Positions 2,878 through 22,211 of a DNA stretch of 25,050 nucleotides are shown here, in pieces. The notes beneath the pieces are model-generated. The model had not been told where the DNA came from, did not search any database, and saw only the letters and a program-made list of their open reading frames with translations. The stretch covers positions 1 to 25,050 of IMG/VR virus record IMGVR_UViG_3300020220_000304; one strand, 5' to 3'. The stretch is from a virus. Position numbers and translations under genes: made by a program. Position 1 is the first letter of the stretch. Each line of letters begins with the position of its first letter.

Positions 2878-3183
2878 ATGCAATTAACTTATGATGAAGT
2901 AAGAGAAATTTGTAACACTGTTGAGTGTTTCAAGATGAAGACTCAAGTTATCGGAAATTCTACCATTGCCCAATGCACGTACTTTTTGGCTTCTGCCGGT
3001 GATTTTTTCCCTGACATGATTGAACTCGAAAAGGATGGTGAAACCATCATCATTTACGGTGAAACTGTCATCAATGGAAAAAAGGCCGCAGATATGACAG
3101 ACACCGAACTCGAAGCTTTGGGTTTTGATTTTCTGTCGAAGTTTGCGTTTGGTCTAAAGATTGAAGAGGAAACCGAACAATGA
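2878..3183 (+). CDS. Unknown protein translationally coupled to the RNA ligase (101 aa)
   Basis: A 101-residue acidic protein beginning MQLTYDEVREICNTVE, with CGGAG placed 9 bases before the ATG. The stop overlaps the start of the RNA ligase piece (ATGA at 3180-3183), so the two should be made together. Its segment ASAGDFFPD vaguely recalls the 'ASYSDWLLPD' stretch of the T4 Rnl1 N-terminus that the downstream gene lacks, but the rest does not fit, and I treat it as a separate unknown protein. Codon use is the G/C-richer class shared with the ligase. Confidence 0.7.
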   Translation: MQLTYDEVREICNTVECFKMKTQVIGNSTIAQCTYFLASAGDFFPDMIELEKDGETIIIYGETVINGKKAADMTDTELEALGFDFLSKFAFGLKIEEETEQ

Positions 3184-4022
3184 ACATTACTCGCCGAAAG
3201 GGCAATCTTTGTGAGCTGAGAGGCATCATGTTCATCCGTGAGGGTGATGGAGCATGGAAGCGTCATCTTTTCTTGGATAAGTTCTTTAATGTAAATCAGA
3301 CAGCCGGAAGTGATGTCACTTGGATGCAATTGACGATCAATGGCGCAACTCAAAAGATCAACATCAATCAGTTGTACGCTGATGCTGATGAGAAGTTGTA
3401 CCGCGCCATCGATTTGAAGCTTGGTCAGACTGTTGGCTTATATGATCGTGGAACGGAAGAGACTGGCACGATGTTTACCATCAAGTCACTGCAAAAGGAA
3501 ATTCTGCCTACTGACGTAAAGGAGAATTCCTGGATGTACGATGATTTGAAGGATTTGGAAGTTGAGCGTGTTGCCAATAAGGAAGACGGATCAGCTATTC
3601 GGTTTTTTATTCTGAACGGTGAACTGCGAGCAAAGACGAAGTTTTCTTTGGAGGCTGAGCAGGCTGAAATTGCGATGAAGGTTGTGGAAAATGATGCTCG
3701 TCTAAAAGCCTTTATTCTAAAGACATTAGAGAAGGGTTTAGCGGCGTTGTTTGAAATTGTATCACCGTTGAACAAAATCGTTCTTTCTTACCAAGAAACT
3801 TCACTGCGTCTGTTGCAGTTGCGTGTTGAAGCAACGGGTGAGTACCTGAACATTTACGACAACGAGCTTGTCAAGGAGTTCAGAGTTTTGACGACTGCAC
3901 AAGAGAATCTGGCAGAAATCAGAGCGATTGCTGACAAGTTTGACAATGCTGATGAACTCCGAGCAATACTTGGTGATTTAAAATTCAATTCTTTGGAAGA
4001 ATTCTTGAATTACCTAAAATAA
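3180..4022 (+). CDS. rnlA: RNA ligase 1 (T4 Rnl1 type), N-terminal piece
   Basis: This 280-residue protein is the nucleotidyl-accepting part of an ATP-dependent RNA ligase of the T4 Rnl1 family, which seals 3'-OH/5'-phosphate breaks such as cut tRNA anticodon loops. Visible landmarks: RGIMF...KFFNVN (residues 14-39, matching the T4 region before motif I), motif I KEDGS with nucleotidyl Lys134, motif Ia around RAKTKFSLEAEQA, motif III ALFEIVSP and motif IIIa LLQLRVEATGEYL. It stops after ...LEEFLNYLK, before motifs IV and V, which lie on the separate gene at 4968. Compared with T4 Rnl1 about 50 N-terminal residues are missing and about 70 extra residues sit between KFFNVN and KEDG. The frame cannot extend upstream (in-frame TGA at 3162). 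A GIY-YIG endonuclease gene follows. Confidence 0.85.
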   Translation: MNITRRKGNLCELRGIMFIREGDGAWKRHLFLDKFFNVNQTAGSDVTWMQLTINGATQKININQLYADADEKLYRAIDLKLGQTVGLYDRGTEETGTMFTIKSLQKEILPTDVKENSWMYDDLKDLEVERVANKEDGSAIRFFILNGELRAKTKFSLEAEQAEIAMKVVENDARLKAFILKTLEKGLAALFEIVSPLNKIVLSYQETSLRLLQLRVEATGEYLNIYDNELVKEFRVLTTAQENLAEIRAIADKFDNADELRAILGDLKFNSLEEFLNYLK

Positions 4023-4067
4023 ACTTGCATTTTTATCCGTTAAATAGCCGTGCAAAGCAAATTTTAG

Positions 4068-4075
4068 TATAAATA
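4068..4075 (+). promoter_or_regulatory. T4-late-type promoter octamer before the endonuclease
   Basis: TATAAATA ending 21 bases before the ATG at 4097. T4 intron and free-standing endonuclease genes are often under late promoters, which suits this position. Confidence 0.5.
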
Positions 4076-4096
4076 AAGATAAACGGATATACTAAA

Positions 4097-4927
4097 ATGC
4101 TTTATCATTACACATACAAATTAACTATACTGACACCAATAGATGAAAGAAAATATTACATTGGTGTCAGAACTACATCTGTTAAACCTCAAGAAGATTC
4201 AAATTATATTAGTTCCTCTAAAACTATAAAAGCACTTATTAAAAAACATGGGAAAAATATTTTTAAAAAAGAAGTAATCAAGATATTCGATACTAGAAAA
4301 GAAGCATTAGAACACGAAATAGAATTACACAATATCTATAATGTTTCGTCAAACAATGAATTTTTTAATAGAGCTATTCAAACATCAACCGGATTTGATA
4401 CCACCGGGATACCTGTAAACCATAATGATGAAACTAAGAAAACTATTTCAAATAAGGCAAAACACCGATACGCAAATGGATTTAGAGTTGTGCCATCACA
4501 AGAACAATTAGAAAAAATGTCAATGTCATTAAAAAACTATTATAAAAATACTGATCATCACACAAAAGGAAAAACTTACGAAGAAATAATGGGTAAAGAA
4601 AAAGCAGAAGAATTAAGAAAAATTCGAACTGAAAATAATCCAATGAAAAACAAAGCATACCGAGAGAAAATAAGCTTGGCTCTCAAAGGTACGAAAAAAA
4701 CTGAAGAGACAAAAAAACAATTGTCAGAATTAATACCAATAACTAATGGGTTGAATAATAAAAGAATAAAACCAGATCTGCTTACAGAATATTTAGATAT
4801 TGGGTGGTGGAAGGGTTACACAAGAAAACCTGAAAAAACATATAAATGTGAACATTGTGATACCGAGACAAATAAAGGTAATTTGTTAAGATGGCATAAT
4901 TCAAATTGCAAATTTAAAAAAATGTGA
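4097..4927 (+). CDS. GIY-YIG homing endonuclease inside the RNA ligase locus
   Basis: A 276-residue Seg/I-TevI-like homing endonuclease. The N-terminal GIY-YIG domain is seen as YKLTI...KYYIGVRTT (about residues 7-28), followed by the helical part with KHGKNIFKKEVIKIFDTRKEALEHEIELH, whose Glu is the expected metal ligand. The middle carries NUMOD3-like DNA-binding repeats (NNPMKNKAYREKISLALKGTKKTEETK). The C-terminus has a zinc finger (CEHC...HNSNC, about residues 252-273) of the 'GNLLRWHNSNCK' kind found in phage homing endonucleases. It lies between the two pieces of the RNA ligase, is A-rich unlike either flank, has its own late-type promoter and no strong ribosome site, and contains the -35 of the next promoter in its last codons. 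Confidence 0.9.
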   Translation: MLYHYTYKLTILTPIDERKYYIGVRTTSVKPQEDSNYISSSKTIKALIKKHGKNIFKKEVIKIFDTRKEALEHEIELHNIYNVSSNNEFFNRAIQTSTGFDTTGIPVNHNDETKKTISNKAKHRYANGFRVVPSQEQLEKMSMSLKNYYKNTDHHTKGKTYEEIMGKEKAEELRKIRTENNPMKNKAYREKISLALKGTKKTEETKKQLSELIPITNGLNNKRIKPDLLTEYLDIGWWKGYTRKPEKTYKCEHCDTETNKGNLLRWHNSNCKFKKM

Positions 4928-4933
4928 TATAAT
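4906..4933 (+). promoter_or_regulatory. Promoter for the C-terminal RNA ligase piece
   Basis: TTGCAA (4906-4911), 16-base spacer, TGA-TATAAT (TATAAT 4928-4933). It lies in the last codons and stop of the endonuclease gene and gives the ligase C-piece independent expression. Confidence 0.7.
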
Positions 4934-4967
4934 ATCATAACGTACTCAACAGCACAGGAGTCAAATT

Positions 4968-5498
4968 ATGAATATTCTAGAACTCTTGATGATTTCTTCA
5001 GAACACATTGAAAATAAAGAAGGAGTTGTCATCACTTTTTCAAACGGGAAGATGGCAAAGCAAAAAACGGTTTGGTACGCAAAAATTCATGGTCTCTTGA
5101 CCGATGGGTTGAAGGAGCACAAGCTCATCGCCAAAGTATTGGGAGAGACGATTGACGATGTTTTGGCGTACATTCCTGTTGACGCTTACGAAGAGCGGTC
5201 ATTTATCAACGATTTGACCGAAGTTATCGTAGCGAATGTCAACAAGAGAGCAACCGAAGCGTTTGATTTCTTCAATGCCAACTACAACGGTGATCGAAAG
5301 ACTTTTGCTATCACGTATAACAAGCATACGTTGTTTCGGTTTGTGACTGTTTTGTTTCAGAACAATACTTATGAGGCAATGAAGGATCGGATTGTCAAGG
5401 ATGTTTTGTTTGAGACTCGTAGATTGGAGCGTGCTCGTACTTATCTGCGAGACCTTGGTTTTGAGCGTGAATTGAAGATGATCGAGGATGATGGTTAA
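4968..5498 (+). CDS. rnlA: RNA ligase 1 (T4 Rnl1 type), C-terminal piece
   Basis: A 176-residue protein equivalent to the second half of T4 Rnl1. Near the start ENKEGVVITFSNGKMAKQKTVWY lines up with T4 '[23 protein letters not shown]': motif IV EGVV (residues 18-21) and motif V with Lys31 and Lys33. The remaining residues form the mostly helical C-terminal domain that in T4 Rnl1 gives tRNA specificity. It has its own promoter (4906-4933), an AGGAG ribosome site and ATG, and a terminator, so it is a complete expression unit. Together with the 3180 gene it holds all nucleotidyltransferase motifs, so the two polypeptides probably assemble into an active enzyme. This is inferred by analogy with the split nrdA of phage Aeh1. 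Confidence 0.85.
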   Translation: MNILELLMISSEHIENKEGVVITFSNGKMAKQKTVWYAKIHGLLTDGLKEHKLIAKVLGETIDDVLAYIPVDAYEERSFINDLTEVIVANVNKRATEAFDFFNANYNGDRKTFAITYNKHTLFRFVTVLFQNNTYEAMKDRIVKDVLFETRRLERARTYLRDLGFERELKMIEDDG

Positions 5499-5583: not shown

Positions 5584-6633
5584 ATGAAATCGGTCACATA
5601 CAAAGATTCTGGGGTCGATATTGACGAAGGAAATAGACTTGTAAGAATTATCAAACAAAGTGTTAAATCAACTTTTAGACCAGAAGTAAAATCAGATATT
5701 GGAGGATTTGGAGCGTTATTCAAACCAGATTTATCAAAGTATTCAAATCCTGTATTTGTTTCTGGCACAGATGGTGTTGGAACAAAACTAAAGATTGCCA
5801 ACATAATGGATAAACACGATACAGTTGGTATTGATCTTGTTGCGATGACAGTAAATGATATTGTTGTTCAGGGTGCAGAACCATTGTTTTTCTTGGACTA
5901 TTTCGCAACTGGTAAATTGGATGCAGAAAAAGCAGCACAAATTATTGAAGGAATCGCAGAAGGATGCAAACAAGCCGGATGCGCATTGATTGGTGGTGAA
6001 ACAGCAGAAATGCCAGGCTTTTATCAAGCCGATGAGTATGATTTAGCTGGTTTTTGTGTTGGAATTGTTGATCAAGATAAAATTATCGATGGTTCGACCA
6101 TTAAAAAAGGCGATCAAATTATTGGATTAGGTTCAACTGGTCCACATTCCAATGGTTATTCACTAATCAGAAAATTGTTTTATGGTGAACCCGCAATAGA
6201 TTACAATAACGAATTTGCAGGAAAAACTATTGGCGAATGGGTTCTTGAACCAACCAGAATTTATGTTAAAACCATATTAACATTGATCAAAAAATTCAAT
6301 ATTAAGGGAATAGTACATATTACTGGTGGTGGTTTTCAAGAAAATATTCCGAGAATCATTCCAAGTAATTTGGGTGCTACTATTGATGTTTCAACATGGG
6401 TAAGACAAGAAATTTTCAGTTTTATTCAGGCATTAGGAAATATTACTGATTATGAGATGTTTAGAACATTTAATTGTGGAATTGGCATGATTTTGATTGT
6501 TGATAAGAACGATTGCACCGATGTCATCAATAAGGCAATTAAATTGGGCGAAAAGGCATTTCATATCGGAGAAGTAAACGATACATCTCCGAATTCCGTT
6601 ACTTTTATCAACGCTGAAAAAATAATTTCTTAG
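5584..6633 (+). CDS. purM: Phosphoribosylformylglycinamidine cyclo-ligase (AIR synthetase)
   Basis: PurM closes the imidazole ring in purine synthesis (FGAM + ATP to AIR). The 349 residues match the usual length of about 345 and all family landmarks are present in order: YKDSGVDIDEGN (6-17), VSGTDGVGTKLKIA (about 59-72), MTVNDIVVQGAEPLFFLDYFATG, the ATP-site GCALIGGETAEMPGFY, HSNGYSLIRK, ITGGGFQENIPRI and FRTFNCGIGM. Nothing suggests decay. AAGGA lies 9 bases before the ATG. It stops at TAG (6631-6633); reading on would run into the tmRNA promoter, so TAG is a real stop here, which matters for judging the TAG in the tail fibre gene. It is a plausible auxiliary metabolic gene raising the purine supply. 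Confidence 0.95.
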   Translation: MKSVTYKDSGVDIDEGNRLVRIIKQSVKSTFRPEVKSDIGGFGALFKPDLSKYSNPVFVSGTDGVGTKLKIANIMDKHDTVGIDLVAMTVNDIVVQGAEPLFFLDYFATGKLDAEKAAQIIEGIAEGCKQAGCALIGGETAEMPGFYQADEYDLAGFCVGIVDQDKIIDGSTIKKGDQIIGLGSTGPHSNGYSLIRKLFYGEPAIDYNNEFAGKTIGEWVLEPTRIYVKTILTLIKKFNIKGIVHITGGGFQENIPRIIPSNLGATIDVSTWVRQEIFSFIQALGNITDYEMFRTFNCGIGMILIVDKNDCTDVINKAIKLGEKAFHIGEVNDTSPNSVTFINAEKIIS

Positions 6634-6725: not shown

Positions 6726-7114
6726 GGGGCTGAAATGGTTTCGATAGGGTCGTAGAAATTGAAATTGCAAGTAGTGTGACAAGCTATAATTGTCGAAAAA
6801 AAATAAATGCAGGTGCTAAACTCTATATTCCACAGTCGGCGATGGCCACTGCTTAAACCTCTTTCTTCTTAGGAAGAGTCTGGAATGCCTAGCAAGGAGG
6901 TTCTCTAATTACCAAATTGCAATAGGTTCAACAAAATTTAGATAAGGGTTCGGAATGGTTGATGACCGAATCATGAAAATCAAGATAACCAACTCGTAAT
7001 CAGATGCGCCTGTTTGTCACAGATTATGAGTAATTGAAAAATGGGCTAAACTTGTAAACGAAATTTCAATGGAAGTGATTTTACACTGGGGTTCGACTCC
7101 CCACAGCTCCACCA
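6726..7114 (+). ncRNA. ssrA: tmRNA (transfer-messenger RNA), one piece
   Basis: A complete 389-base tmRNA for trans-translation. The 5' end GGGGCTG pairs with CAGCTCC near the 3' end (one G-U pair), followed by ACCA, so the 3' CCA is encoded. The T arm GGGG-TTCGACT-CCCC is intact, and the 5' TGGTTTCGA stretch matches the conserved tmRNA start. The tag frame begins at a GCA resume codon at 6809-6811 after AAATAAAT and ends at TAA 6854-6856, giving AGAKLYIPQSAMATA. AACCTC (6855-6860 region) pairs with GAGGTT (about 6897-6902) as in the helix after the tag. SmpB is not in the window and would come from the host or from elsewhere in the phage. The tag is longer than the usual 8-14 residues for many bacteria and ends ATA rather than LAA or VAA. 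Confidence 0.95.
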
Positions 7115-8111: not shown

Positions 8112-9674
8112 ATGGCTAAGTTCAACAGCACTAACACTACTCGTCGTTCAACTCCTACTCCTGTTGCCGTACAGACCAACATGGCTGGTGGAGTTTCCTA
8201 TACCCGTCCACTCCAGAAGGAAATTACTACAGTCGTTCTCAACTCCATGTTGAACGGCGAAGATTCCTACTACGAGTCTGAAAAGGATCGCATTGCCCGC
8301 ATTGAGGCTTTGGTGTCCACCGCCGAAAGAGACAATCGTGAAAACGATGCAAAGTTTCTTGCAAAGGCAATGGTTTACACCCGCAATGAGGGTCGTCTCC
8401 GCTCTGTTTCTCACTTCCTCGCTGGCTTGCTTGCTGAGAAGGTGAAGGGTAAGGAGTTTTTGCGTCCGGCCTTTGTGAAGTCATTTGTTCGTCCTGACGA
8501 CATGACTGAGGTTGTTGCTCTGTGGAACACTCGGAATAAGGGCAAGATGCTTCCTAACTCTCTTCGTAGAGCTATGAAGACTGCTCTGGAAACCAAGTTC
8601 GATGAGTATCAGTTCCGCAAGTATGCCGGTACTGGTTCAGTTGTGAAGCTGAAGGATGTTGTTAAGATGGTTCACCCTTCTCCTGCAAACTTTGAAGATC
8701 AGACCATTTTTCAGCGAGTTATCGAGGATAAGTTGGAGGCCATCGAAACTGCTCAGACTATCAACGCTGGAAAGACCGGTGAGGATCGTGTTGATGCCTA
8801 CATGGATCAGATTCGTTCCGGTAAGATGGGTTACATGGCATTGGTGAAGAATATCCGCAATCTGCTTGAGGGCGGAATTTCTGAAAACGATTTGAAGATT
8901 TGGTGCAATCTTGTCACCGATCCGGGCCGTGTGAAGAAGTCCATGTTGCTTCCTTTCCGTTTCGTTGATGCTTGGGCTGTTGTCAGTGAGCTTAACATTG
9001 ATGAGTTCAAGAAGAAGATGGTGAAGAAGGCTCTTGAACGGGCATTTGCATTGTCTGCCGGTAACACCAACATCGTTGAAGATGGTGAGAAGATCGCTAT
9101 TCTGCTTGATGAGTCCGGTTCAATGGGTAGCTCTGGTTACGGTAGCAAGGAAGACAAGAAGATGCCGTTTTACATCGGTAAGACTTTGGCAGCTTCTATG
9201 AAGGTCGGTTTGGATTCGGACAGATGCCTCTTCTACACTTGGGCAGATACCTGCACCAAGCGGGATGTGGAAAATATGTCTCCTTTCGACTTCATCAAGA
9301 ATGTCAACACTCGGGGTGGTGGAACCGATGTGGCTGCTCCGTTGAGAGAGTTGCTCAAGACCAAGACCTTTGTTGACAAGATTGTCATTTTCACCGACAT
9401 GCAGTTGTATAGTATGGGTTATGGTTATAATTCTGGAAATATGGCTGATCAGGTCAACAACTACATTGGTCAGTATCGCCAGGATATCAATCCAAACGTG
9501 AAGGTGCTGTTTTGGAATCTCGTTGGTTACGGCAAAGGTAGCCCGGTTGATCTGGAGAAGACCGCAGATGTGTTCGAGGTTGCCGGTTTCAGTGACACCA
9601 TGCTTCAGGTAATTCCAAAGTTGTGGTCAGATAAGGATTTCCTTATCAAGGAGATCGAAGCAGTAGAGCTGTAA
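8112..9674 (+). CDS. rsr: Ro60-family RNA-binding protein (TROVE + vWA)
   Basis: A complete 520-residue Ro60/Rsr homologue, a ring-shaped protein that binds Y RNAs and the ends of misfolded or damaged RNAs and, in bacteria, works with exoribonucleases or RNA-end repair enzymes. Residues about 30-310 form the HEAT-like TROVE domain (including the FLAKAMVYTRNEGRLRSVSH stretch typical of the family). Residues about 325-515 are the von Willebrand A domain with an intact MIDAS metal site: DESGS (Asp333, Ser335, Ser337), Thr405 in GGGTD and Asp429 in FTDMQ. Length agrees with known Ro proteins (about 520-540). It is a single-gene unit with an extended -10 promoter and a strong terminator, and uses G/C-ending codons and AAG, a mark of high expression. 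From memory, a Ro homologue is also known in mycobacteriophage Bxz1, so phage carriage is rare but has precedent. Confidence 0.93.
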   Translation: MAKFNSTNTTRRSTPTPVAVQTNMAGGVSYTRPLQKEITTVVLNSMLNGEDSYYESEKDRIARIEALVSTAERDNRENDAKFLAKAMVYTRNEGRLRSVSHFLAGLLAEKVKGKEFLRPAFVKSFVRPDDMTEVVALWNTRNKGKMLPNSLRRAMKTALETKFDEYQFRKYAGTGSVVKLKDVVKMVHPSPANFEDQTIFQRVIEDKLEAIETAQTINAGKTGEDRVDAYMDQIRSGKMGYMALVKNIRNLLEGGISENDLKIWCNLVTDPGRVKKSMLLPFRFVDAWAVVSELNIDEFKKKMVKKALERAFALSAGNTNIVEDGEKIAILLDESGSMGSSGYGSKEDKKMPFYIGKTLAASMKVGLDSDRCLFYTWADTCTKRDVENMSPFDFIKNVNTRGGGTDVAAPLRELLKTKTFVDKIVIFTDMQLYSMGYGYNSGNMADQVNNYIGQYRQDINPNVKVLFWNLVGYGKGSPVDLEKTADVFEVAGFSDTMLQVIPKLWSDKDFLIKEIEAVEL

Positions 9675-11230: not shown

Positions 11231-11252
11231 CTCTCTACCTTGCGGTAGAGAG
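11231..11252. terminator. Second hairpin between convergent genes
   Basis: CTCTCTACC-TTGC-GGTAGAGAG, a 9-base-pair stem. TTTTATTT follows on +; on - it lies between the tail fibre stop and the stronger terminator. Confidence 0.6.
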
Positions 11253-11273: not shown

Positions 11274-12503
11274 TTATGGTGCAACGAGTTCTGTTGAAAG
11301 AGTACCATCATCACCTACTTTAACTCTGTAACGGGTTCCATTAGGAGATTTGATGATAAGACCTTTTGTATTATCAGAAACTTCGATATCGCTTGTCTCA
11401 ATGAGGTCAACTTTTTGACTAAGAACAGCAAAATGTTGGTCAATAAGAGCACTTGTCTCGATTTTGGTGTATTTGTCAAGATCAGTAATATCAGCTTCTA
11501 CATGTGCATGAACTGCATCAGCTTTGTCGGTGTGACTATGGCCAGTATTTGATTTTCCACCCAAAGCGGTGTCTACTTCTGCTTTGGTGTATTTGTCAAG
11601 ATCAGAAATATCGGCTTCTCCATGAGAATGAGCAGTATTAGCTTTGTCTGCATGATTGTGTGCGGTATCTGCTTTACCAGCAAGAGCTGCATCTGTCTCT
11701 GCTTTGGTGTATTTGTCAAGATTGGTAACATCTGCTTCTGCATGAGTATGTGCAACATTTGCTTTTGTAGCTACAGCTGCATTTACTTCTGCTTTGGTGT
11801 ATTTGTCAAGATCAGAAATATCAGCTTCTACATGACCATGACCAACATTAGATTTGTCTGCGTGGCTGTGAGAAAGAGCTGCTTTACCAGAAAGGGCTGC
11901 ATCTGTCTCTGCTTTAGTATATTTGTCAATACCTGGAACATCTGCTTCTGTATGAGCATGAACACTTTCAGCTTTACCAGCAACTGCAACGATTCTAGGA
12001 TCATTGTCACCAACTACAACTGGCTCTTCAGCGTTTGCAGCAGCAACGGAAAGTCTTCCAATACCTCTTGTTCCGGCGGTGGCTAAAGGAAATGCTCCTT
12101 CAAAACCAATGGAAAACCAATCTGCACCATTATTGGTATACTGCCAATTATTCTTTGTTTCATTCCATCTAATAGCTACATTTGATTCTGAACCACGATT
12201 AACTTCAATCGAAATATCAGATGCAGGAGCACCAGTATGAGCAGTGTTAAGGGTAAATACTGCTGAAGAAGTTCCATCACTGTCAGCTTTGCTTGCTAAT
12301 TCAGTATTCATTTGAAGAACATCTGGTTTTGTAGCAAGTTTGTCTAACAATCCGGTAATCGAAGTCATTGGATGAGAATCGGCTTCTGATCTATTTGCAA
12401 TAAGGTTATGATTTGCGATATAATGAGTATCGAAAATAGGTCTAATATCAAAAATCATATCTTCTGTAATCTTTGTATCAGAATCTTTAAGATAGATAGT
12501 CAA
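11274..12503 (-). CDS. Tail fibre protein, main (C-terminal) part
   Basis: A 409-residue frame counted from a TTG at 12503; in fact it stays open up to the in-frame TAG at 12611-12609, beyond which the same frame continues as the short N-terminal ORF. No ATG or ribosome site lies near 12503, so separate initiation is doubtful. The first part, through DSDTKITEDMIFDIRP, completes the adhesin/fibre N-terminal domain begun in the other piece. The middle (about residues 170-370) has HxH-containing repeats (KYTKAE.DAAL.GKA..H.H.DK), as in the iron-binding needle of T4 gp37. The end (TSDIEVSDNTKGLIIKSPNGTRYRV) looks like a small beta domain rather than a known receptor tip. It is read leftward, convergent with the 10725 gene, and ends at a bidirectional terminator. 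Confidence 0.85.
   Translation of the reverse strand: MTIYLKDSDTKITEDMIFDIRPIFDTHYIANHNLIANRSEADSHPMTSITGLLDKLATKPDVLQMNTELASKADSDGTSSAVFTLNTAHTGAPASDISIEVNRGSESNVAIRWNETKNNWQYTNNGADWFSIGFEGAFPLATAGTRGIGRLSVAAANAEEPVVVGDNDPRIVAVAGKAESVHAHTEADVPGIDKYTKAETDAALSGKAALSHSHADKSNVGHGHVEADISDLDKYTKAEVNAAVATKANVAHTHAEADVTNLDKYTKAETDAALAGKADTAHNHADKANTAHSHGEADISDLDKYTKAEVDTALGGKSNTGHSHTDKADAVHAHVEADITDLDKYTKIETSALIDQHFAVLSQKVDLIETSDIEVSDNTKGLIIKSPNGTRYRVKVGDDGTLSTELVAP
11463..11970 (-). repeat. Tandem coding repeats in the tail fibre (30/40-residue units)
   Basis: The DNA motif TTTGGTGTATTTGTCAAG and near copies recur at about 11463, 11583, 11703, 11793 and 11913, that is at steps of 120, 120, 90 and 120 bases. 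On - they encode LDKYTKAE and flanks. Eight HxH motifs (HAH, HSH, HGH, HTH, HNH, HSH, HSH, HAH) fall in this stretch. The 90-base step is a unit that has lost (or not gained) a 10-residue H.H.DK subunit. Confidence 0.85.
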
Positions 12504-12608
12504 AATTGGAAGATTAAGACTTGGAAGTGCTGGGAGTGCGGAAGGACTAGGTGACTCTTCACCATTAGTAATAACAAGTCCGCCAAGATCGTTAAGGGAA
12601 ACTAAAAC

Positions 12609-12803
12609 CTATTTAGCGCCAGCTGAAGGCTTAGTAAATTCAGGACTATTTCCGCCAACGTACTCCACCATTTTACCATTAATCCATGCAGTACCTGCAT
12701 TGATAAAAATTGTCATATTAGGGTCATTTTGTGCTTTCCCTTTAAGCATTTCAAAATGAGAATTCAATTTTCTAAAATCATTACCATGTGGTGGTTTATT
12801 CAT
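12609..12803 (-). CDS. Tail fibre N-terminal piece, ends at in-frame TAG (64 aa)
   Basis: From an ATG at 12803 with AGAGGA about 8 bases upstream and a late-type octamer at 12847-12840, 64 residues are read to a TAG (12611-12609). The end (TIFINAGTAWINGKMVEYVGGNSPEFTKPSAGAK) is the first half of a domain common at the N-terminus of phage tail fibre and baseplate proteins ('..G.ywINGk.v.y.GG.SP.f..Ps...k..l..in..G.l.i..G'). The second half, VLVSLNDLGGLVITNGEES, follows right after the TAG in the same frame. It is therefore best read as the front of the 11274 gene, interrupted by one amber codon, not as an independent gene. Confidence 0.8.
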   Translation of the reverse strand: MNKPPHGNDFRKLNSHFEMLKGKAQNDPNMTIFINAGTAWINGKMVEYVGGNSPEFTKPSAGAK

Positions 12804-12839
12804 TTTTGTATTCCTCTATAAATTGTAATTGTTTTGTTT

Positions 12840-12847
12840 TATTTATA
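12840..12847 (-). promoter_or_regulatory. T4-late-type promoter octamer before the tail fibre
   Basis: TATAAATA on -, 36 bases before the tail fibre ATG, as expected for a virion gene. Confidence 0.6.
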
Positions 12848-12995: not shown

Positions 12996-13592
12996 TTACT
13001 CGTTTGTTTTCTCTACCTTAAACAGTCTATCAAAATTAGCCTTTTCAATGATTTTTCTAATGTGCTTAGAAGCATTGATAATCGGTATTTCGCAATTTCC
13101 TTTATCCAGATATTGTCTAAAAGTCAGCAATAAACCAAGTGCACTATCATCAATTTGTTCTGTATTTTTAAAATCCAAGACTACATCAATGCTTCTATTC
13201 CATATAATGGCTTTAATAAATTTCCATTCAATTTCTGAAACCGTCATATATGTGAATTTTTTACCAATATCAAATATTATGGTTTTTTTGGAAAATTTGG
13301 TTTTTCTCTTAGTGTTTACCAATACGAACTGATACCCTTCTTCTTGTCTAACAAGCTTATAAAAATCACAATTCATGCAACTTGAAAGACCCTCTTCAGT
13401 TTTATTCATACATTTTGTGTTATTAAGTGTCCAGCATAATCTTCCTCCATGTGTTCCTCCATTTATACCTTCTTCTGGATTTACTATAGAAGCAGGACAA
13501 ACTCCTTGCTTTTCAGCATTTTTACCACCTTCTTGTAGTCCACATTGTTTGTATTCCCAGCAATTTAATTTACTACTCTTGAATGCAGTCAT
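12996..13592 (-). CDS. Two-CW domain plus STAS domain protein (198 aa)
   Basis: The N-terminal part (residues about 9-90) has the two-CW arrangement: Cys11-Trp, Cys17, Cys32, GGRLCW with Cys53-Trp, Cys61, then SCMNC (Cys72, Cys75) and FYKLVRQEEG, probably a metal or redox site. Residues about 92-195 are a STAS domain, as in anti-sigma-factor antagonists, with the signature IDDSALGLLL; Ser150 is in the place usually phosphorylated. STAS proteins act as switches that sequester an anti-sigma kinase. A phage copy could therefore rewire a host sigma-factor or stress pathway, but no kinase partner is visible here. The gene is leftward with GGAG 8 bases before the ATG. I know two-CW proteins mainly from deltaproteobacteria, which hints at the host. 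Confidence 0.8.
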   Translation of the reverse strand: MTAFKSSKLNCWEYKQCGLQEGGKNAEKQGVCPASIVNPEEGINGGTHGGRLCWTLNNTKCMNKTEEGLSSCMNCDFYKLVRQEEGYQFVLVNTKRKTKFSKKTIIFDIGKKFTYMTVSEIEWKFIKAIIWNRSIDVVLDFKNTEQIDDSALGLLLTFRQYLDKGNCEIPIINASKHIRKIIEKANFDRLFKVEKTNE

Positions 13593-21394: not shown

Positions 21395-21509
21395 AGGTAA
21401 TATGGATTAACTCCTAATTTAGAAGTTTGAATGGTACTAAGAGCTTCGACAATTTGAAAATAAAAGAAATTTAACTCTAACTTATTTGTGTACCAAATGG
21501 AGAAAAAAA

Positions 21510-22211
21510 ATGAAAAAAATGTTATTGGCCGTAGCAGCAGCATTCGCACTTGGAGTGGCCGTCCCTTCTATTGCTCAAGCTGATGGCCTCAAAGCATCCG
21601 GAACAGCTGGTGTTCAGTCACGTTATGTTTATCGTGGTGTAGAAGACAATCAAGAGACTCCTGTTCTTTTGGCAACTGGTCAGGTATCTTACCTTTTTGT
21701 TCGTCTTGGTGGCGATGTCAGAACACTTAATATGAACGAGGACACTTCTCTTCTCAAGTGGAATGGTCATGCCGAGTTGTTTCATGATGTCTATGGTCAT
21801 GAGTTGAAGTTGGGTCTTGGTACTGATGAAGTGCTAAATTCTTCAAGTGAGATTTATGTTGGCGCAGCCGGTCCAATCCCATTGATTCCTTGGGGTTTGA
21901 AGTATGATGCAACTGTTTCCCGTTCCAATCAGCTTGGTGATGTTTGGTTGGATGGTGGTATTTCCAAGACTCTTGGTGATTTCACTCTTCGTGGTGGTCT
22001 CGCTGGTGGTTATTATGACAAGACTCGTTATCATAACGGACTTGAGACTGTTTCCGGAACTGTTACCTACAAATTGACTCAGGTTCCTCATTTGCAGAAT
22101 GGATCCATTAATCTTGGTGTTGTTCATCTTGTTGACGACAATCATATTGTTCGTGGTATCAGAACCAATGATGATAACATCTTCCAGGGTGGCGTAACCT
22201 TCACCTTCTAA
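21510..22211 (+). CDS. Outer-membrane beta-barrel protein with Sec signal (233 aa)
   Basis: The ATG at 21510 follows GGAG by 7 bases; an in-frame ATG at 21486 would place a useless extension before the signal. Residues 1-24 are a classical signal peptide (MKKMLLAVAAAFALGVAVPSIAQA, cut before Asp25). The mature part begins with SGTAGVQSRYVYRGVEDNQETPVL, like the proteobacterial TIGR02001 ('gcw_chp') outer-membrane family, whose hallmark is 'SdYvyRGvsq...pal'. It goes on with alternating beta strands rich in Gly/Thr/Leu and ends in FTF, the C-terminal Phe signal for barrel assembly. A phage-made surface protein may alter the host envelope, for instance to block superinfection. Codon use indicates high expression, and a strong terminator follows. 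Confidence 0.8.
   Translation: MKKMLLAVAAAFALGVAVPSIAQADGLKASGTAGVQSRYVYRGVEDNQETPVLLATGQVSYLFVRLGGDVRTLNMNEDTSLLKWNGHAELFHDVYGHELKLGLGTDEVLNSSSEIYVGAAGPIPLIPWGLKYDATVSRSNQLGDVWLDGGISKTLGDFTLRGGLAGGYYDKTRYHNGLETVSGTVTYKLTQVPHLQNGSINLGVVHLVDDNHIVRGIRTNDDNIFQGGVTFTF

Follow-up and report, generated by a model that had tools for sequence, protein, structure and literature searches.

A single in-frame TAG interrupts a tail-fibre-like gene in a virus contig with standard code use

Some large phages read the stop codon TAG as an amino acid, and an in-frame TAG in an otherwise open virion-type gene raises the question of how that codon is decoded. Such a case occurs on the minus strand of a 25,050-base contig of an uncultured phage from IMG/VR (the whole stretch analysed here, which we call the window), where a tail-fibre-like reading frame is open from its ATG to its terminal TAA except at codon 65. 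The original prediction had listed suppression, recoding, a nonsense mutation and a sequencing error as explanations without choosing among them. Here we describe the gene, the use of the genetic code around it and its relatives in other phages, and argue that an ordinary nonsense change is the reading best supported by the evidence.

One gene interrupted by one TAG

The TAG at codon 65 of 509 (minus-strand context GGC GCT AAA TAG GTT TTA GTT) is the only stop inside the frame, which confirms that the gene carries a single in-frame TAG (Table 1). We call the gene a tail fibre because PF12789 (phage tail repeat; PTR repeats) matches residues 317–368 of the predicted protein (E = 1.4e-6) with a score of 28.7 bits, above the Pfam gathering cut-off of 27 bits for this family. 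AlphaFold gave a poor model for the first 240 residues (pLDDT 43), and the model's placement of residue 65 in a predicted strand (residues 64–70) was given no weight.

The uninterrupted alignment of a phage protein across the site shows that this is more than a chance stop in a frame. Bacillus phage G gp255 (AEO93514.1; 611 amino acids, no stop) aligns without a break through the TAG (gp255 GGSTPEITKPNAQAK-F-VIVCITKTG; fibre GGNSPEFTKPSAGAK-stop-VLVSLNDLG), in a match that covers fibre residues 1–222 (E = 1e-39, about 40% identity). Identity is 31/64 before the stop (48%) and 59/155 over residues 66–222 (38%), and homology is again present at the C-terminal end, where 22 of the last 44 residues (466–509) are identical (50%; 49% over residues 461–509). 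Like the fibre, gp255 consists of an N-terminal region (1–222), a middle built of repeats and a C terminus that is conserved (SPNGTRYR...), but it is uninterrupted, has different middle repeats and carries Phe at the position of the TAG. The TAG is thus a genuine stop within a genuine gene, and the proposal that the two parts form one gene is supported. What had been described as a conserved domain is indeed continuous over the stop; its conservation is with gp255 only, the N-terminal half of the fibre scoring above cut-off against no family of Pfam or PHROG. Trp, which the original prediction named as the residue restored if a sequencing error had turned TGG into TAG, is only one option for the lost codon; the Phe of gp255 makes a hydrophobic or aromatic residue plausible here.

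Apart from phage G, no homolog over the stop region was found among viral contigs (by protein, by alignment and by DNA pattern across the site), genome contigs, phages or plasmids, and neither the viral nor the genome contigs yielded a close relative with the same site. Two further records (L001 and L002) and Synechococcus phages match the fibre only in short stretches past residue 180. The only homolog found over the site, gp255 (40% identity), has a sense codon at the TAG position.

Table 1 Features of the interrupted fibre-like gene (window positions)
Feature	Position	Strand	Remarks
Upstream region with Shine–Dalgarno AGAGGA	12804–12822	-	anti-SD duplex -6.0 kcal/mol
Tail-fibre-like gene	11274–12803	-	509 codons + TAA, ATG start; open except codon 65; gp255 homology; PF12789
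5' part, 64 codons up to TAG	12612–12803	-	48% identity to gp255
In-frame TAG, codon 65	12609–12611	-	aligned gp255 residue is Phe
3' part, 444 sense codons past TAG	11274–12608	-	own start without support
Stem-loop past the 3' end of the gene	11231–11252		called as terminator-like site, + strand

The two parts might instead be translated as separate proteins, one of 64 amino acids and one, the fibre body, begun at TTG 12503 or ATG 12458. Both codons are present in frame downstream of the TAG, but their Shine–Dalgarno energies are -0.2 and -0.9 kcal/mol, and that of a further ATG (12368) is -0.2 kcal/mol, against -6.0 kcal/mol at ATG 12803, a value typical for the window. Separate initiation is therefore unlikely, and starting at TTG 12503 would also lose the gp255-conserved residues between the stop and that codon; we consider two independently translated proteins very improbable. 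Neither TTG 12503 nor ATG 12458 has a Shine–Dalgarno sequence, in agreement with the original prediction that the second part lacks a good start. The 36-codon spacing given there did not hold, as TTG 12503 begins 35 codons past the TAG.

Standard code use in the window

In the 31 genes that are complete in the window (picked by eye from the table of open reading frames; about 6,500 codons), TAA serves as the terminator in 26 cases, TGA in 4 and TAG in 1 (purM). The only internal TAG among these codons is that of the fibre gene, the other 30 genes having none. Gln is encoded 186 times by CAA or CAG and Trp 73 times by TGG in the coding sequence of the window, and the fibre gene's own five Gln and four Trp residues are likewise specified by these codons. 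If TAG regularly coded for Gln or Trp, internal TAGs should be far more numerous, and regular coding by TAG is accordingly unsupported. The TAG of purM lies at 6631–6633 and the next in-frame TAA or TGA is 42 codons further, so that reading on would enter the tmRNA gene. These observations show standard code use in the window and bear out the earlier argument, made from purM, against genome-wide recoding of TAG.

Genome-wide or late-gene reassignment of TAG (code 15) is known from some large phages (PMC13037316, PMC9523058). In phages where TAG encodes Gln, internal TAGs are numerous and a tRNA with a CTA anticodon is often present (PMC13037316). The fibre gene resembles them in that its TAG falls within a virion-type gene, but the window differs in having one such codon in about 6,500, no CTA tRNA and TAG as a terminator. 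Set against the 186 Gln and 73 Trp codons of standard form, this single TAG leaves reassignment strongly disfavoured in this window, and we give it almost no credence.

Phage affiliation and gene setting

Kinship of the whole window with phage G was considered and dropped, as besides the fibre the matches to that phage are confined to a TROVE protein (22%) and two homing endonuclease-like proteins. Vibrio phages of 191–196 kb match the NrdD (75%), NrdG (about 50–53%) and TROVE (51%) proteins of the window; a fibre match was not found in these phages, in searches that included no positive control. The neighbours of the fibre gene include no recognisable structural genes, and in phage G, similarly, gp255 stands alone, flanked by genes of the opposite strand. 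Together with the few other matches to phage G, this setting suggests that the fibre gene is accessory and travels from one phage to another.

Several other features of the window were noted. A gene for a STAS-domain protein with a cysteine-rich N terminus (12996–13592) lies immediately upstream of the fibre gene and shares its strand. A phage-encoded tmRNA (6726–7114; tag AGAKLYIPQSAMATA) directly follows purM, and phage tmRNAs have been reported from phage G and some mycobacteriophages (PMC4131195). The TROVE/Ro60 plus vWA protein (8112–9674), whose nearest relatives are those of the Vibrio phages, is encoded about 1 kb from the tmRNA, and in phage G, too, a TROVE gene lies close to the tmRNA and the tRNA cluster. 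A T4 RNA ligase 1-like protein is spread over two open reading frames (3180–4022, corresponding to Rnl1 residues 90–195, and 4968–5498, corresponding to Rnl1 residues 221–325), between which lies an open reading frame for a SegE/GIY-YIG-like endonuclease (4097–4927); a search with Rfam detected no group I intron at this split gene (3180–5498). The protein encoded at 21486–22211 has a signal-peptide-like N terminus, looks outer-membrane-like by eye and has no Pfam match.

Nonsense change, suppression or consensus error

We consider it on balance probable that the TAG reflects a recent nonsense mutation, or a variant within the population, in a fibre-like gene that stands alone and looks accessory. 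This reading is favoured because homology runs through the stop with a sense codon in gp255, because no suppressor tRNA, second in-frame TAG or readthrough structure was found in the window, and because the 30 other genes have no internal TAG while purM terminates at one. A single-base change at codon 65 would have become fixed in the phage or would be one of the variants in the population that was sampled. Translation from ATG 12803 to the TAG would yield a 64-amino-acid stub without the remainder of the fibre, and little or no full-length protein would be produced. The downstream frame would still be intact because the change is presumably recent, and the phage may bear the loss, since the gene has the look of an accessory, horizontally moved fibre set apart from other structural genes. 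Precedents exist. Phage lambda mutants without side tail fibres, mostly frameshifts, are strongly selected in a gel (PMC2762979); they resemble the present case in that a small mutation inactivates an accessory fibre and leaves the phage viable, and differ in being mostly frameshifts in a laboratory phage whose fibre showed no homology to this one by any test here. In a survey of prokaryotic genes, in-frame stops were commonest in the mobilome category, and most were judged short-lived (PMC7918605).

What counts against a nonsense change is that the 444 codons past the stop show no decay, which would also fit readthrough that keeps the gene in translation. Amber suppression or leaky readthrough, by a phage- or host-encoded suppressor or by near-cognate misreading, would give a short and a long product from a frame that is intact and conserved to the C terminus. 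A suppressor would be cheap, because TAG ends only 1 of the 31 window genes. Stimulatory RNA structure is not always required for programmed stop-codon readthrough. Against suppression or readthrough, the RNA genes of the 25-kb window are tRNA-Asn, tRNA-Thr and the tmRNA only, with no CTA-anticodon suppressor among them; three folds around the TAG were no more stable than shuffled sequences (z = +1.2, +0.2 and +0.8); and one gene only is affected. Phages can encode suppressor tRNAs (PMC13037316), but none with a stop anticodon occurs in the examined tRNA clusters of Vibrio phage phiKT1024, which has nrdD, nrdG and TROVE in common with the window. Phage G, source of the closest fibre homolog, does have an annotated tRNA with a TTA anticodon beside its tmRNA (JN638751.1, 411932–412006; 2198–2271 in record L010; ARAGORN and GenBank annotation). 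Read by eye, its cloverleaf seems complete but its anticodon loop (CCTTACG) has C in place of U33; gp255 needs no suppression. An efficient TTA suppressor in phage G seems unlikely because U33 is absent and TAA is the majority stop there (378 of 523 open reading frames, with TAG ending 88). This tRNA is possibly an ochre/amber suppressor or a degenerate tRNA; it is a lead only and not evidence for the window. A scan of phage G for same-frame neighbours gave no information, since genes in tandem are often in the same frame. No result of this analysis shows ribosomes passing the TAG. Overall, we hold suppression or readthrough to be the less probable course, at roughly one chance in a handful. 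More doubtful still is its specific form in which a suppressor tRNA encoded outside the window, by phage or host, decodes TAG in the fibre gene alone, the code being otherwise standard and genes rarely ending in TAG, so as to give a tunable mix of no fibre (the 64-amino-acid stub) and full-length fibre.

The base itself may also be wrong, or a minority variant in a mixed-strain assembly, with a sense codon in the phage. The source is a lone contig, one substitution suffices and no other listed gene has an internal stop. That same absence of stops from the 30 other genes speaks against generally poor quality, and short-read assemblies seldom carry substitution errors in their consensus. We judge a consensus error unlikely, somewhat more so than suppression or readthrough taken broadly.

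If the TAG is a nonsense mutation, as we favour, the contig would be a snapshot of a phage shutting down an accessory gene for adsorption, an ordinary event in phage biology. Were the stop suppressed instead, the dose of fibre would be set by translation, a form of control rarely documented in DNA phages. The case also cautions against taking a lone in-frame TAG in a large phage as more than weak support for recoding.
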